Below, in pieces: positions 192 through 10,813 of a stretch of DNA of 64,000 nucleotides. The notes beneath the pieces are model-generated. The model was not told where the DNA came from. It saw only the letters and a program-made list of their open reading frames with translations, and made no database searches. Every line of letters begins with the position of its first letter. Position 1 is the first letter of the stretch. The DNA is taken from contig NZ_BBJR01000047.1 in NCBI RefSeq assembly GCF_000739875.1, positions 1 through 64,000 on the forward strand, given 5' to 3'. The position numbers were made by a program, and so were the translations under genes. Source of the DNA: Comamonas aquatica NBRC 14918 (GTDB lineage Bacteria > Pseudomonadota > Gammaproteobacteria > Burkholderiales > Burkholderiaceae_C).

Positions 192-2559
<2,368 letters not shown>

Positions 2560-2622: not shown

Positions 2623-3555
2623 CTACGCCTCTTGCGGCCAATACAGGCGCATCGGGTTGTCCACCAGCAGCTTGCGCTGCAGCTCGGCGGTCGGCGCGAT
2701 GTGCGGGATGAAGTCCACCAGCAGGCCGTCATCGGGCATGTGGTCCTTCAGATTCGGGTGCGGCCAGTCGGTGCCCCACAGCACGCGGTCGGGGAATTCC
2801 TCGACCACGCGGCGGGCGAACGGCACCACGTCGCGGTAGGCGGCCTGCTCACCATGAAGGGCCTGGGGGCCGGTGACGGACAGGCGCTCGGGGCAGCTGA
2901 CCTTGCTCCAGACGTTCGGGTGCTCGCGCATGAACTTCAGGAACAGGGCGAATTCTGCGCTGTCCACGCCCTGGCGCACGTCGGGGCGGCCCATGTGGTC
3001 CACGACCACGGTGGTGGGCAGGCGGGTGAAGAAGTCCCACAGCTCGGGCAGGTCCACGGCCTCGAAATAGATGACCACGTGCCAGCCCAGCTGGGCGATG
3101 CGCCCGGCAATCTCCATCAGCTCGTCCTTGGGCGTGAAGTCCACCAGGCGCTTGACGAAGTTGAAGCGCACGCCGCGCACACCGGCGGCGTGCAGCTGAT
3201 GCAGCTCGTCGTCGGTGATGGAGCGGCGCACCGTGGCCACGCCGCGCGCCCGGCCACCGCTGGCCAGGCAGGCATCGACCATAGCGCGGTTGTCGGCGCC
3301 GTGGCAGGTGGCCTGCACGATGACGTTGCGCGCAAAGCCCAGGTGGTCGCGCAGCGCGAACAACTGCTGCTTGCTGGCGTCGCAGGGGGTGTACTTGCGC
3401 TCGGGGGCGTAGGGGAATTCCGCCCCCGGCCCGAAGACGTGGCAGTGGGCATCGACCGCGCCGGCGGGCAGCTGGAAGCGCGGCCGGCTGGGGCCCCTGT
3501 ACCAGTCGAGCCAGCCGGGGGTCTTGGTGAAGTCACCGGTGGTGGGTGTGCTCAT
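2623..3555 (-). CDS. ligI: 2-pyrone-4,6-dicarboxylate lactonase
   Basis: This 310-residue amidohydrolase-family enzyme hydrolyses 2-pyrone-4,6-dicarboxylate to 4-oxalomesaconate (OMA). The sequence shows the N-terminal metal-site motif VDAHCHVFG, a VVDHMGRPD segment, and the C-terminal WGTDWPHP motif with its catalytic aspartate, all features of LigI/PmdD. The start at 3555 (MSTPTTGDF) was chosen over a much longer upstream extension because that extension would overlap ligK. It lies between ligK and the ligAB fusion, with gaps of 13 and 117 bases, and acts between LigC and the OMA hydratase. Confidence 0.93.
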   Translation of the reverse strand: MSTPTTGDFTKTPGWLDWYRGPSRPRFQLPAGAVDAHCHVFGPGAEFPYAPERKYTPCDASKQQLFALRDHLGFARNVIVQATCHGADNRAMVDACLASGGRARGVATVRRSITDDELHQLHAAGVRGVRFNFVKRLVDFTPKDELMEIAGRIAQLGWHVVIYFEAVDLPELWDFFTRLPTTVVVDHMGRPDVRQGVDSAEFALFLKFMREHPNVWSKVSCPERLSVTGPQALHGEQAAYRDVVPFARRVVEEFPDRVLWGTDWPHPNLKDHMPDDGLLVDFIPHIAPTAELQRKLLVDNPMRLYWPQEA

Positions 3556-3568
3556 CGCGGGCCTCCGT

Positions 3569-4252
3569 TCAGTCGATGTACTTGAGGCCGGCGGCTGCCA
3601 GCGGCTCGCGCATCTGGTACATGTCCAGGCCCAGCACGCCGTTGGCCAGCTTGGCGCGCTTCTCGCCTTCGAAGCTTTCGCGCTTTTGCGCGGCGGCCAG
3701 CACCTGGGTGGCGCGGGCGGCGGGCACGCAGACCACGCCGTCGTCATCGGCCACGATGACATCCCCCGGGGTGACGAGCTGGCCGGCGCAGACCACGGGC
3801 ACGTTGACCGCGCCCAGCGTGGCCTTGATGCAGCCCTTGGACGAGATCGCCTTGCTCCACACCGGGAAGTCCATGGCCTGCAGCGTCTTGACGTCGCGCA
3901 CGCCAGCGTCGATGACCAGGGCGCGGGCACCGCGGGCCTGGAAGCTGGTGGCCAGCAGGTCGCCAAAGTAGCCGTCGGTGCAGGGGCTGGTCACGGCGGC
4001 CAGCACGATGTCGCCGGGCTGAATCTGCTCGGCCACCACATGCATCATCCAGTTGTCGCCGGGCTGCAGCAGCACGGTGACGGCCGTGCCCGAGACCTGG
4101 GCCCCGGGGTAGATGGGTCGCACATAGGGTTGCAGCAGGCCGACGCGGCCCATGGCCTCGTGCACGGTGGCCGAGCCCAGGGCGCCCAGGCCGTCGGCCG
4201 CGGTGCGGTCGGCCCGTTGGATGTTGCGGTACACCACGCCAAGTTCGTACAT
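3569..4252 (-). CDS. ligK: 4-carboxy-4-hydroxy-2-oxoadipate (CHA) aldolase
   Basis: This 227-residue protein belongs to the RraA-like/HMG-CHA class II aldolase family. It cleaves 4-carboxy-4-hydroxy-2-oxoadipate to pyruvate and oxaloacetate, the last step of protocatechuate 4,5-cleavage, and commonly also decarboxylates oxaloacetate. The family signatures are visible: a GxxxVHEAMGR start (near residue 30), the [17 protein letters not shown]-like metal-binding stretch, and VIDAGVRD. The start MYELGVVY is preceded by AAGGAAAG; an upstream ATG seven codons earlier is less likely. A 120-base gap with large inverted repeats separates it from ligJ. Confidence 0.93.
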
Positions 4253-4372: not shown

Positions 4373-5401
4373 TTATTTGCCCTGGGCCTTCAGCGCCGCA
4401 TCCAGGCGCGTGAACACGCGGCGGGCGTTGCCTTCGTAGACCATGTGCTTTTCCTCGGCCGTCAGGTTCTGCGTGGCCTCGATGTAGCGCTTGGTGTCGT
4501 CGTAGTAGTGGCCGGTCTGCGGATCGATGCCGCGCACGGCGCCGATCATTTCGCTGGCGAACAGGATGTTCTGGGTGGGGATCACCTCGGTCAGCAGGTT
4601 GATGCCCGGCTGGTGGTAGACGCAGGTGTCGAAGAAGATGTTGTTCAGCAGGTGCTCTTCCAGCAGCGGCTTCTTCATCTCCTGCGCCAGACCGCGGAAA
4701 CGCCCCCAGTGGTAGGGCACGGCGCCGCCGCCATGGGGGATCAGGAACTTCAGCGTCGGGAAGTGCTTGAACAGGTCCGACGTCAGGCACTGCATGAAGG
4801 CCGTGGTGTCGGCATTCAGGTAGTGGCTGCCCGTGGTGTGAAAGCAGCTGTTGCAGCTGGTGGAGACGTGGATCATCGCGGGTATGTCGTACTCCACCAT
4901 CTTTTCGTAGATGGGGTACCAGCTGGGGTCGGACAGCGGGGGCGACGTCCAGTGGCCGCCCGAAGGATCGGGGTTCAGGTTGATGCCCACGTTGCCGTAC
5001 TGCTCCACGCACTTGACCAGCTCAGGGATGCAGGTGGCAGGGTCCACGCCGGGCGACTGCGGCAGCATGGCCGCGGGAATGAAGTGGTCGGGGAACAGCT
5101 GGCTGACGCGATAGCACAGCTCGTTGCAGATGGCGGCCCAGGTGCTGGAGGTCTGGAAGTCACCAATGTGGTGGGCCATGAAGCTGGCGCGCGGGCTGAA
5201 GATAGTCAGGTCCGAGCCACGCTCTTTCATCAGGCGCAGCTGGTTGGTCTCGATGGTCTCGCGGATGTCGTCGTCGCTGATGCGCAGGTCGCTGGCCTGG
5301 GGGGTCAGGGCCGGGTCTTTCAGGCCGGCGATCTGCAGATCGCGCCAGGCGCCCAGGGCGGCCGGGGCGGTGGTGTAGTGGCCGTGTACGTCGATGATCA
5401 T
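4373..5401 (-). CDS. ligJ: 4-oxalomesaconate (OMA) hydratase
   Basis: This 342-residue amidohydrolase-superfamily protein would hydrate 4-oxalomesaconate to 4-carboxy-4-hydroxy-2-oxoadipate. The metal-binding start MIIDVHGHYTTAP (His6, His8) and the FLIPHGGGAVPYHWGRF segment match LigJ/PmdE and related ACMSD-type enzymes. The start at 5401 is supported by GAGGA and by the family's usual N-terminus; the open frame extends further upstream without a good ribosome site. It is followed by ligK, the next enzyme, and preceded by the transporter gene. Confidence 0.92.
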   Translation of the reverse strand: MIIDVHGHYTTAPAALGAWRDLQIAGLKDPALTPQASDLRISDDDIRETIETNQLRLMKERGSDLTIFSPRASFMAHHIGDFQTSSTWAAICNELCYRVSQLFPDHFIPAAMLPQSPGVDPATCIPELVKCVEQYGNVGINLNPDPSGGHWTSPPLSDPSWYPIYEKMVEYDIPAMIHVSTSCNSCFHTTGSHYLNADTTAFMQCLTSDLFKHFPTLKFLIPHGGGAVPYHWGRFRGLAQEMKKPLLEEHLLNNIFFDTCVYHQPGINLLTEVIPTQNILFASEMIGAVRGIDPQTGHYYDDTKRYIEATQNLTAEEKHMVYEGNARRVFTRLDAALKAQGK

Positions 5402-5468: not shown

Positions 5469-6824
5469 TCAGTGCCCGTCCTTGGGGCTGGTGGCTTGCT
5501 TGATGACCAGGGCGGCCGTCGCAATCAGGCCTGGAATGGCCACCACGGTGAAGATCTGGCTGAAGCCCAGGTGGCGCGCCGTCAGCTCGGCCACCAGGAA
5601 GGACCCGGCAATGCCGCCGAAGCGGCCAATCCCCAGCATCCACGCCACCCCGGTGGCACGGCCACTGGTGGGATAGAAGGCCGCGGCCAGCGCGGGCATG
5701 GACGACTGGGCCGTGTTCATCAGGGTGCCTGCCACAAACACCGCCACCACCAGCCAGCCCAGGCTGCCCGCCTCCTGGCCGATCCACCAGATGGAAGCCG
5801 CCGTCAGCGCATAGCCCACGGCAATGATGCGATTGGCGTTGAAGCGATCCATCAGCCAGCCAAAGAACACCGCCCCGACGCCGCCCAGCGGGAACAGGGC
5901 CGCCACCAGGGTGGCCGTCTGCGGCTCCAGCCCGCCTTCCTTGAACAGCACCGGCATCCAGTTCATCAGCGCGTAGAAGATGACCAGGCCCATGAAGTAC
6001 GCCAGCCACAGCATGAACGAGCCCAGGCGGTAAGGCTTGGACAGGACTACGCCCATGCCGCTCTTGCCGGCCACGGCCGCCTTGCGCTCCGTCATCACGA
6101 ACTGCTGCACCTGCAGCACAGCATCGCCGGCTATGCGCGCCAGCGGCTTGCGGATGCGGTCTGCCGCATAGCCCCGGGTCACCATGTAGCGCACCGACTC
6201 CGGCAGCACCAGCACCAGCAGCACCACGACCAGCAAGGGCACGACGCCGCCCAGGTGCAACACGCTGCGCCAGCCGAAATGCGGGATCATCCAGGCCGCC
6301 AGGAATCCACCCAGGGCCGCGCCCAGTGGAAAGCCGCAGAACATGGCATTGGTCAGCATGGCGCGGCGCGCGTCGGGGCAGTACTCGCTCATCAGCGTCA
6401 CCGCGTTCGGCATGGCCGCCCCCAGCCCCAGGCCGGTGACAAAGCGCAGCGCGGTCAGGGTCTGCAGATCGTGCGCATAGCCCGATGCCAGGCAGCCCAC
6501 AGCAAACACCAGCACCGACCCCACCAGCACCGCCTTGCGGCCAAAGCGGTCGGCCAGCGGGCCGGAGCACACGGCACCGCCGGCCAGGCCAAACAGTGCC
6601 GCGCTGAGCACGGGCGCCAGGTCGGGCTTGCTCAGGCCCCACTCGGTCAGCAGCGACGGCGCGATGTAGCCGATGGCGGCCGTGTCGAAGCCGTCCAGCA
6701 GCACGATGACAAAGCACAGGGCAAAGATCGCCCATTGGAAGCGGGAGAACGGGTGCTCGTTGAGCACGGTCTGCACATCGGCGGTCAGCGCAGCAGCGCC
6801 TGGGGCCTGGGGAACTTGTCGCAT
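5469..6824 (-). CDS. MFS aromatic acid:H+ symporter (PcaK/PmdK type)
   Basis: This 451-residue protein is a 12-helix major facilitator of the aromatic acid:H+ symporter family. The DGFDTAAIGYIAPSL stretch in helix 1 and GPLADRFGRKAV in the loop after helix 2 are its family motifs. It likely imports protocatechuate, 4-hydroxybenzoate or a related acid across the inner membrane. It lies second in the operon, 67 bases ahead of ligJ, the place occupied by pmdK in described Comamonas clusters. The exact substrate is inferred from context only. Confidence 0.9.
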   Translation of the reverse strand: MRQVPQAPGAAALTADVQTVLNEHPFSRFQWAIFALCFVIVLLDGFDTAAIGYIAPSLLTEWGLSKPDLAPVLSAALFGLAGGAVCSGPLADRFGRKAVLVGSVLVFAVGCLASGYAHDLQTLTALRFVTGLGLGAAMPNAVTLMSEYCPDARRAMLTNAMFCGFPLGAALGGFLAAWMIPHFGWRSVLHLGGVVPLLVVVLLVLVLPESVRYMVTRGYAADRIRKPLARIAGDAVLQVQQFVMTERKAAVAGKSGMGVVLSKPYRLGSFMLWLAYFMGLVIFYALMNWMPVLFKEGGLEPQTATLVAALFPLGGVGAVFFGWLMDRFNANRIIAVGYALTAASIWWIGQEAGSLGWLVVAVFVAGTLMNTAQSSMPALAAAFYPTSGRATGVAWMLGIGRFGGIAGSFLVAELTARHLGFSQIFTVVAIPGLIATAALVIKQATSPKDGH

Positions 6825-6931
6825 GGGAAAACCTAGCTTGTCTCTGGTGTTATAGGTGGTGCTGGCTTGCCGAAGGCCTGTGCCCGCCCTCGCAGGCAGG
6901 CGGCCGGGCGCACGCGGCGCCCTCGGCGGTT

Positions 6932-7639
6932 CTAGAGGGTGGCGGGGACGGCGGCCGGCGCCATGCCCTGCTGGTGCTTGGCCGCCGCGGCAGCCTCGGA
7001 GGCCATGAAGGCCAGCAACTGCTGCACGGCCTGCGCCTGGGCAGAACCCGCCACCACGGCGCCGGAAAAGATGGTGTCGATGGCCACGGCGTCCGGCAGC
7101 GGCCCCACGATGGTGATGCCGGGCACGTGGATCAGCTCGCTCAGTTGCTGGAAGCCCAGGGCCACCTCGCCATCGGCCACCAACTGGCCCACGGGCACGC
7201 CGGGGCGGGCCTGGACCAGGCGTGGCTGCAGCTGCTCGGCCACGCCCCAGGCTTGAAACAGTTTTTGCAGCGCCACGCCGCTGGGGCCGGTGGAATAGCC
7301 GATGCTGGGCGCGGCCAGCACGGCATCGCGCAGCGCGGCTTCGGTACCGATGTCGGGCGGCTCGGTGCCCGCCAGCACGGCCACGGCCGTGCGGGACAGC
7401 ACCAGGTCCACCTTGCTGCCGGCCACGGCATGGCCGCTGGCGATCAGCTGGTCAATCGCGTCCGAGGCCAGGAACACGGCGTCAAAGGCTTCGCCGGCCT
7501 GCACGCGCCGGGCGGCATCCACGCCGCCCACCGATTCCAGGGCCAGGGCCGCGCCCCCGCGCGCCTGCCAGGCCTGCGCCAGCTCGGCCAGCACCCGGCG
7601 CGTGGCCATGGAAGAAATGCCTGTGATTGCGGTGTGCAT
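6932..7639 (-). CDS. ModA-like binding-fold protein without signal peptide
   Basis: This 235-residue protein resembles molybdate-type (ModA/PBP II) solute-binding proteins: it starts MHTAITGISSMATRRVL, then has VGGVDAARRVQAGEAFDAVF and VALGFQQLSEL stretches typical of that fold. It has no signal peptide or lipobox, so it is predicted to be cytosolic, and no ABC permease or ATPase is nearby. It is the first gene of the pmd/lig operon, where described Comamonas clusters have the poorly understood pmdU. The operon otherwise lacks an oxalomesaconate tautomerase (LigU/GalD type). A role as tautomerase or as ligand sensor is speculation. The start 7639 avoids translating the tandem repeat upstream. 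Confidence 0.75.
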   Translation of the reverse strand: MHTAITGISSMATRRVLAELAQAWQARGGAALALESVGGVDAARRVQAGEAFDAVFLASDAIDQLIASGHAVAGSKVDLVLSRTAVAVLAGTEPPDIGTEAALRDAVLAAPSIGYSTGPSGVALQKLFQAWGVAEQLQPRLVQARPGVPVGQLVADGEVALGFQQLSELIHVPGITIVGPLPDAVAIDTIFSGAVVAGSAQAQAVQQLLAFMASEAAAAAKHQQGMAPAAVPATL

Positions 7640-7685
7640 GCCAATGTCTCCGATCGATGGTGCCTGCTGCTTCTCGACATGGCCG

Positions 7686-7738
7686 CAAGGCCATGGCGCA
7701 GGCTTTTCATGCAAGGCCATGGCGCATGGCTTTTCATC
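7686..7738. repeat. Tandem 26/27-bp duplication upstream of the pmd operon
   Basis: Two near-identical units, 7686-7711 and 7712-7738, abut each other; each reads CAAGGCCATGGCGCA then (T)GGCTTTTCAT and holds a GCCATGGC palindrome. The pair sits 47-99 bases upstream of the first gene of the leftward operon, so it could be a double operator or simply a local duplication. The remainder of 7640-7830 shows no gene. Confidence 0.7.
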
Positions 7739-7830
7739 CATTGTGAAGAGGTGCGTGCCCTGCGGCTAGCCAGGGGCACCGCTAGCAGCTATGCCCTGAA
7801 AGCATAGGACGCGACCACCCTCTCCCCGAT

Positions 7831-9120
<1,290 letters not shown>

Positions 9121-9922: not shown

Positions 9923-10813
9923 TTAAATCACCTGCTGGCTGAGCTGGCGCAGCACTTCCGCCGTGCGCTTGATCAGGGGCGTGGCCTGCTTCTTGGAGGA
10001 CTGCGCCAGGCACAGGGTGCTGACGATCTGCGGCTCCACCACCGGCAGCACGGCCAGGCCGGCATCGTCCGTGGCATGGTTCACGGCGCTGGCCGTCAGG
10101 GCCGCATAGCCGTAGCCGCTGCGCACCAGGTCCAGGATGGCAGGCACGCTGGAGACTTCCCAGACCACGTTCAGCTTGACCTGCGACAGCGTGGCCTGGG
10201 CCTCCATCAGCTTGCGGAAGATCTGGCCGCGCTGCGGCATGATCAGCGGAAAGTCCGACAGCTCACTGAACGCCACCTGCCGGCGACCCGGCAAGGCGCG
10301 GGCCGGGCCAATCAAGCACAGCGGCTCCTGCAGCACCGGCACCACCTCGATGTTGGGGTTGGGCTCCGGCGTGTAGACCAGACCCAGATCCATGCGCCCG
10401 GAGGTCAGCCACTCGGCGATGTTCACGGAAAAACCCTCCACCACGGCCAGGCGCGCCTTGGGCATCTCCTTGCTGAAGGTGTCGATCAGCGGCAACGTCA
10501 ACCGCCGCGCCAGGCTGGGTGGCAGGCCGACGACGATACGGCCCACGGGCTCGTCGCGGTGGCTGCCCAGGTCTTCCTTGGCCAGAGCCACGCGCTGCAT
10601 GATGGCGTGCCCATGCTCCAGCAGCCGCCGGCCGGCATCGGTCAAGGCCACGCCGCGCCCTGTGCGGATCAGCAGGGTTTCCCGCAGCTCGATCTCCAGG
10701 GCACGCACTTGGCGGCTCAGCGCCGGCTGCGCAATGTCCAGCAACAGTGCGGCCTTGCTGAAGCTGCCGGTCTCGGCGACATGTACAAATGTTTCAATCT
10801 GCTGCAGGTTCAT
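9923..10813 (-). CDS. LysR-type transcriptional regulator
   Basis: This 296-residue protein is a typical LysR regulator: helix-turn-helix near residues 18-37 (SFSKAALLLDIAQPALSRQV) and a periplasmic-binding-like effector domain from about 90. It faces the Bug-type binding protein gene across a 217-base gap, so it may control that gene, itself, or the aromatic operon; in Comamonas a LysR protein (PmdR) is reported to regulate pmd genes, from memory. Its 3' end is three bases from the convergent pobR stop. The effector cannot be read from the sequence. Confidence 0.88.
   Translation of the reverse strand: MNLQQIETFVHVAETGSFSKAALLLDIAQPALSRQVRALEIELRETLLIRTGRGVALTDAGRRLLEHGHAIMQRVALAKEDLGSHRDEPVGRIVVGLPPSLARRLTLPLIDTFSKEMPKARLAVVEGFSVNIAEWLTSGRMDLGLVYTPEPNPNIEVVPVLQEPLCLIGPARALPGRRQVAFSELSDFPLIMPQRGQIFRKLMEAQATLSQVKLNVVWEVSSVPAILDLVRSGYGYAALTASAVNHATDDAGLAVLPVVEPQIVSTLCLAQSSKKQATPLIKRTAEVLRQLSQQVI

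Follow-up and report, generated by a model that had tools for sequence, protein, structure and literature searches.

A ModA-fold protein as the proposed 4-oxalomesaconate tautomerase, and probable PmdU ortholog, in the protocatechuate 4,5-cleavage operon of Comamonas aquatica

The protocatechuate 4,5-cleavage operon of Comamonas aquatica NBRC 14918 raises the question of which protein interconverts the tautomers of 4-oxalomesaconate (OMA). In one published account LigU is listed as the OMA delta-isomerase and LigJ as the hydratase of 2-keto-4-carboxy-3-hexenedioate (KCH) (PMC6888825). Within the window, by which we mean the whole stretch of 64,000 nucleotides that was analyzed, the operon lies on the minus strand with the gene order ModA-fold protein, PmdK, LigJ, LigK, LigI, fused LigAB and LigC. 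The first of these genes (6932..7639) encodes a protein of 235 aa, which we treat here as a proposed OMA tautomerase and probable PmdU ortholog on the basis of its match to PF13531, its operon slot, the changes of slot occupant on a LigJ tree and its predicted fold.

The remaining genes of the operon are all encoded on the same strand. PmdK (5469..6824) is a PmdK/PcaK-like aromatic acid:H+ symporter of the MFS type, scoring below cut-off with both HbztTptrPcaK (499.7 bits, cut-off 770) and TIGR00895 (400.7 bits, cut-off 418.55). LigJ/PmdE (4373..5401) is a hydratase of the amidohydrolase fold (PF04909) that acts on the product of the tautomerase and was named through operon order and relatives; its five best named matches are all from Comamonas (C. 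testosteroni twice, C. terrae, C. composti and C. odontotermitis). It is followed by the CHA aldolase LigK/PmdF (3569..4252; TIGR02798, 411 bits, cut-off 304.5), the PDC hydrolase LigI/PmdD (2623..3555; PF04909, named via operon order), a protocatechuate 4,5-dioxygenase having the LigA and LigB domains in one frame (1144..2505) and the CHMS dehydrogenase LigC/PmdC (192..1151; GFO_IDH_MocA, named via operon order). The starts of LigJ, LigK, LigI and the fused LigA-LigB were inferred. The upstream neighbour, also on the minus strand, is the 4-hydroxybenzoate 3-monooxygenase PobA (7834..9003; TIGR02360, 677.7 bits, cut-off 538.7), beyond which come a plus-strand IclR gene of the PcaR/PobR type and then a LysR-type regulator on the minus strand (9923..10813), the latter identified by profile search.

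Several variations in related operons were seen along the way. The LigA-LigB fusion is also found in L118, L120, L150, L161, L163, L173, L234 and Arthrobacter plasmids, while LigA and LigB are two genes in L114-L117, so that the fusion looks recurrent. A metallo-beta-lactamase-fold gene with a signal-like N-terminus is positioned between the ligK and ligI homologs of C. testosteroni ATCC 11996 (L115:9891-10880), and a DUF1932 (6-phosphogluconate dehydrogenase-like) gene takes that position in Diaphorobacter (L207:11475-12407). A DUF1932 gene is likewise located in or near a protocatechuate operon of Methylobacterium (L196:1-448).

The ModA-like ORF reported by the initial annotation is real, lies on the minus strand and is the first gene of the pmd/lig operon. 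It starts with an ATG at 7639 preceded by GGAGA, its stop ends at 6932, and a profile search matched its 235 residues to PF13531 (SBP_bac_11) with E=1.9e-40. An alternative in-frame ATG is present 34 codons upstream, and the residues that it would add are not hydrophobic. With the NCBIfam modA equivalog model the protein scored 31 bits, below the cut-off of 62.5. We collected 28 relatives with 54-76% identity, a homology far above chance. The public annotation reads 'substrate-binding domain-containing protein'. A scan of 6700-7900 for sigma-70 promoters and a PHROGs search with the protein each gave no match.

The protein seems to stay inside the cell, without an export signal, as judged from the sequence of its N-terminus. 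The first strand of the AlphaFold2 model begins at residue 5, and the 13-aa hydropathy maximum of the N-terminus is 0.70, compared with 2.12 in a signal-bearing paralog and 1.91 in E. coli ModA. Across 20 of 20 clade sequences, the starts of which were chosen by homology and agree within one codon with those of annotated plasmid genes, this maximum ranges from 0.70 to 1.62, against 1.91 and 2.12 in the two exported proteins; export was judged here by hydropathy alone. The missing signal peptide pointed out in the initial annotation is thereby borne out, and the same holds for the missing transporter partners, given that the scan of ten window proteins turned up neither an ABC permease nor an ABC ATPase and the transporter that is present belongs to the MFS. 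The genome of NBRC 14918 also encodes an exported paralog (L002:1246-2079) with 41% identity and a signal peptide. The paralog directly follows an ORF that is also binding-protein-like but belongs to another family, and in the 3.6 kb examined we noticed no gene for an ABC partner.

The AlphaFold2 model has a pLDDT of 96.0 and a pTM of 0.90, and the best solved matches in Foldseek are ModA-like (E=1.3e-18 to 4kd5). By structure alignment the model superimposes on 7tav_E with Z 23.7 and rmsd 2.7 over 218 aligned residues, and on ModA (6nio) with Z 23.6 and rmsd 2.4 over 225. The molybdate ligands of E. coli ModA, which we take to be S12, S39, A125, V152 and Y170, align with A12, G39, S120, G147 and Q165, and thus are not kept. 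All 20 of the clade sequences aligned, which come from Comamonadaceae, Burkholderiaceae, Methylobacterium and Arthrobacter-group plasmids, share these five replacements. Residues M11, A12, T13, G39, V40, T117, G118, P119, W131 and G147 are invariant in the clade and differ in all three secreted relatives that were compared. Lys, His, Cys, Asp and Arg are nowhere invariant among these 20 aligned sequences, and of the ionisable residues just Y115 and E168 are conserved throughout; the secreted relatives have these two as well.

The initial annotation had further stated that neither LigU nor GalD is found in the operon and had called for a search of the rest of the genome. That search was run with PF04303 (the PrpF family), which we take to be the family of LigU and GalD, and it returned no match in the whole genome (3,732,350 bases, 99.99% complete). 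We use the term 'LigU-type' below for PF04303 members scoring 250-400 bits and mostly located beside ligJ, a class set by score and position and not by comparison with LigU of SYK-6 or GalD of KT2440.

What occupies the slot upstream of ligJ was determined in 53 genomes of the genus, in which 45 LigJ loci were counted at an identity of at least 75% (five rows under 75% were dropped). The ModA-fold protein is found within 6 kb at 26 of these loci and a LigU-type PrpF at 18, and the one remaining locus is broken by a contig end in a genome that carries the ModA-fold protein on another contig. The occupant of the slot lies 1.4-1.65 kb from ligJ at 25 of the 26 ModA-fold loci and at 12 of the 18 LigU-type loci, and in the loci that were read gene by gene this gap is filled by pmdK. 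Counted by genome, 27 of those with LigJ have the ModA-fold protein only, 18 have the LigU-type protein only, and none has both or neither (Fisher p=5.8e-13, uncorrected for phylogeny). Small or frame-split PrpF fragments in G446, G453, G460 and G474 and a 187-bit PrpF in G467 were dropped from this count, and homologs of the ModA-fold protein that scored no more than 128 bits, which are secreted or other paralogs, were left out of the genus and family counts alike. G446, which is 85% complete, holds a 49% relative of the ModA-fold protein together with its broken PrpF fragment and has no LigJ match.

The pattern extends through the family, sampled as 150 genomes, of which 89 have LigJ at an identity of at least 70% (seven rows under 70% were dropped). 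Among the 89, the ModA-fold protein is present in 79, PrpF only in nine and neither in one (G107); another genome (G147) has only a high-scoring PrpF, which is far from ligJ. By locus, the ModA-fold protein is within 6 kb of ligJ in 60 cases, PrpF in eight, both in none and neither in 21, and at 19 of these 21 the ModA-fold protein is encoded elsewhere in the genome. Forty-seven of the 60 linked copies lie within 82 bp of ligJ. Outside the 89 LigJ genomes the ModA-fold protein was found in only 2 of 61. The unlinked copies L107-L110 have no informative neighbours.

Beyond the family, 19 of the 21 LigJ genomes that lack the ModA-fold protein have a PrpF, 15 of them with it no more than 3 kb from ligJ. 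Across 80 named LigJ loci the ModA-fold protein was present at 29, LigU at 17, neither in the stretch examined at 34 (including L174, where a cut 89-aa piece of the ModA-fold protein was counted as neither) and both at none. On a LigJ tree with 98 labelled rows the occupant of the slot changed 16 times by parsimony, with at least seven of the changes forced by well supported (starred) branches; this is a quick tree with some long rows, 47 of its 95 inner branches are open, and its set is not random, as L210-L249 were chosen for known status and a few records are duplicated. In a distant genus of the phylum, six genomes (L101-L106, ORF near 7 kb) encode a further ModA-like cytosolic protein, about 230 aa long, with 32-36% identity and the N-terminus LSTLALKGA or LSTLGLMGA. 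They have no LigJ match, and no clear gene context was seen in the three that were inspected.

At the level of PF04303 as a whole the exclusion is not absolute, because 31 of the 89 family LigJ genomes carry the ModA-fold protein together with some PrpF. Some PF04303 member is present in 51 of the 53 genus genomes, nearly all of which have a high-scoring PrpF, as is expected from the methylcitrate cycle. Whether the distant PrpFs break the exclusion was examined by placing 19 of them, from 17 family or genus genomes with the ModA-fold protein, on a tree that left out five more of the same score range (G056, G074, G076, G116 and G143), and none fell in the LigU clade. Thirteen belong to a sister clade of LigU (42-47% identity to LigU) and six to PrpF-type or other branches, while a twentieth, from a genome without the ModA-fold protein (G338), groups with LigU. 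The sister subfamily (L251-L256, L258-L262, L264 and L265) is located away from ligJ in family genomes with the ModA-fold protein. The neighbours of one member (L258) include a family III CoA-transferase gene and one of the MaoC-like type, and another copy is found by an FAD oxidoreductase and a lyase.

Gallate operons allow the step to be narrowed down. In five plasmid records from Burkholderia, Paraburkholderia and Caballeronia (L198, L199, L200, L202 and L206) the ModA-fold protein comes after LigJ and LigK in an operon that also has a ring-cleavage gene. The ring-cleavage gene is annotated as gallate dioxygenase in four of these five records, the fifth being without annotation, and a tannase is sometimes present. 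Neither LigI nor LigC, searched with the window's proteins, nor LigU was found in the stretch of any of the five. On one plasmid from Comamonadaceae the ModA-fold protein accompanies gallate dioxygenase and LigJ, with no LigI, LigC or LigK matches. One family genome (L216) has a similar gallate-type operon in which a LigU-type PrpF is found together with LigJ, LigK and a ring-cleavage gene of that kind. OMA is described as the direct product of gallate dioxygenase in a recent paper (PMC12314914). The ModA-fold protein thus goes with the step that leads from OMA to LigJ rather than with the reactions before it.

Other arrangements were also recorded. Diaphorobacter has the order LysR, ModA-fold protein, LigJ, LigK, and Paraburkholderia caribensis has LysR, '4-oxalomesaconate tautomerase' (the annotation of its LigU-type member), LigJ, LigK. 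Three Arthrobacter-group plasmid operons carry the ModA-fold protein, with LigU not found there, and in Streptomyces (L205) the ModA-fold gene is divergent from the lig genes. In 12 of 14 plasmid neighbourhoods around homologs ligJ is located within 9 kb. The two plasmid homologs without ligJ nearby have 37% identity.

Reciprocal replacement in the same slot, together with presence in gallate operons, strongly supports the earlier proposal that the ModA-fold gene fills the tautomerase gap. We consider it likely that the protein is an OMA tautomerase, or 1,3-allylic isomerase, on a solute-binding fold and a non-homologous isofunctional replacement of LigU/GalD, the catalysis being what we infer from this exchange. 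Of the roles that the initial annotation had left side by side, the enzyme is thus favoured because the gene swaps with an enzyme gene, LigU, and the sensor and the substrate-channel protein have become less favoured. The substrate would be ketonic OMA, formed from PDC by LigI or from gallate by gallate dioxygenase, and the product would be its tautomer or allylic isomer KCH, which LigJ hydrates. The tricarboxylate may be held in the interdomain cleft by helix N-termini and by the loops of conserved motifs, namely SMAT (10-13), GGVxAA (38-43), YSTGPSG (115-121), PGxPV (146-150) and LGxQQxxE (161-168), whose placement in the cleft is putative, as is any catalytic role of their residues. The CH2 of OMA between ketone and alkene has an acidic proton that is easily lost; following its deprotonation the motif loops could stabilise the dienolate until the other allylic carbon is protonated. 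By contacting the three carboxylates and the enolate through loops and helix ends, the cleft might accelerate this double-bond shift with neither metal nor cofactor. We lean, with less assurance, towards the fuller account in which a binding-protein fold became a cofactor-free, convergent OMA tautomerase, with the helix-dipole and loop contacts of the anion pocket stabilising the dienolate, and was often swapped with LigU across Burkholderiales.

A cytosolic OMA-binding protein, serving as a sensor, a buffer or a channel to LigJ while tautomerisation occurs spontaneously or through LigJ or LigI, would agree with a fold that is that of binding proteins and with the lack of any clade-specific ionisable residue. 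In one NMR study, the related cleavage product of protocatechuate tautomerised in solution without an enzyme, but OMA from gallate cleavage was seen only as the keto form in the NMR tube (PMC8431788), which makes an enzyme plausible for the OMA step. When galD was deleted in Pseudomonas NGC7, induction by syringate was 15-fold greater, which the authors read as OMA being a strong inducer (PMC12314914). Repeated one-for-one replacement of LigU at the same place is moreover not what a sensor or buffer would lead one to expect, and we hold this reading to be unlikely. In Rhodopseudomonas palustris, knock-down of an annotated OMA tautomerase is described as having changed anaerobic growth on p-coumarate little (PMC12366328), a result that says little here because ring cleavage needs oxygen.

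The ModA fold, the position of pmdK next to the gene in most genus loci that were read, and the label 'ABC-type molybdate transport system' in Sphe3 could suggest instead that the protein takes part in uptake of an aromatic acid or a metal, as a binding protein without a signal peptide that serves the MFS symporter or an ABC importer. Such a role is extremely improbable considering that the N-terminus is not strongly hydrophobic in 20 of 20 clade sequences, that the molybdate ligands are replaced and that 47 of the 60 linked family copies end no more than 82 bp from ligJ. No ABC permease is annotated in ten plasmid neighbourhoods, the gene tables of which are incomplete; one has a 108-aa piece of an ABC ATPase 3.3 kb away. 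The one 37% relative that does lie beside an ABC permease and ATPase stands outside the clade. Since the operon has several tautomerising intermediates, the protein might also serve a different step near OMA, acting on CHMS or PDC tautomers or repairing an off-pathway isomer, with the absence of LigU coincidental. Its occurrence in gallate-type operons that have neither LigI nor LigC in the stretch, and the way in which it tracks the absence of LigU, make this very unlikely.

If the protein is indeed an OMA tautomerase, a well studied bacterial pathway for monomers of lignin and plastics relies on two unrelated enzymes at a single step, one of them hidden under a transport-like annotation in many Comamonadaceae, in some relatives of Burkholderia, and in Arthrobacter and Streptomyces. 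Pathway predictors that require LigU/GalD would score such pathways as incomplete. It would also be another binding protein turned enzyme, with a natural series of gene swaps for testing. A literature search, with most subscription journals outside its coverage, found no paper tying a ModA-like protein to OMA.

Compared with LigU of Sphingobium SYK-6 and GalD of Pseudomonas putida, the ModA-fold protein shares the slot next to ligJ and is mutually exclusive with the LigU type in the genus, so that the reaction is probably the same. However, it is a ModA fold of 235 aa and they are PrpF proteins of about 360 aa, with no homology to LigU detectable (no PF04303 match; hhalign probability of 0.1% against eight LigU-type sequences). 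The fold is shared with ModA over the whole chain (6nio) at 18% identity, yet ModA proper was rejected as an identity for a protein that is below the modA cut-off, lacks an export signal, has five ligands replaced and, in the set of genes scanned, has no ModB/ModC partners. A further member of the clade is PcaT of Pseudarthrobacter phenanthrenivorans Sphe3, 53% identical over residues 5-191 and located at the end of a protocatechuate 4,5-operon; its authors list it with the genes of that operon and gave it a molybdate transport name.

Like PmdU of Comamonas sp. E6, the protein is encoded by the first gene of a pmd operon, before pmdK. The name of the E6 operon is presumably pmdUKEFDABC. Strain E6 has an ANI of 98.57% to C. 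thiooxydans and 93.91% to C. testosteroni (PMC4472898), and in C. testosteroni ATCC 11996, a species close to E6, the ModA-fold protein is found directly before pmdK. In strain KF-1 the PmdK homolog PD1893 is given as 98% identical to E6 PmdK (PMC10154247), PD1895 is treated as PmdF, and pmdB is PD1898 (PMC3746432), numbering that fits the order K-E-F-D-A-B. Taken together with the occupant of the C. testosteroni slot, this order means that E6 PmdU is very probably a ModA-fold protein, and by slot and gene order the C. aquatica protein is very probably its ortholog. The role of PmdU, and hence part of the present reading, may have appeared in print in 2010, and a paper of 2025, some of whose authors also wrote on the pmd operon, groups ligU/pmdU/galD as one OMA step (PMC12314914).
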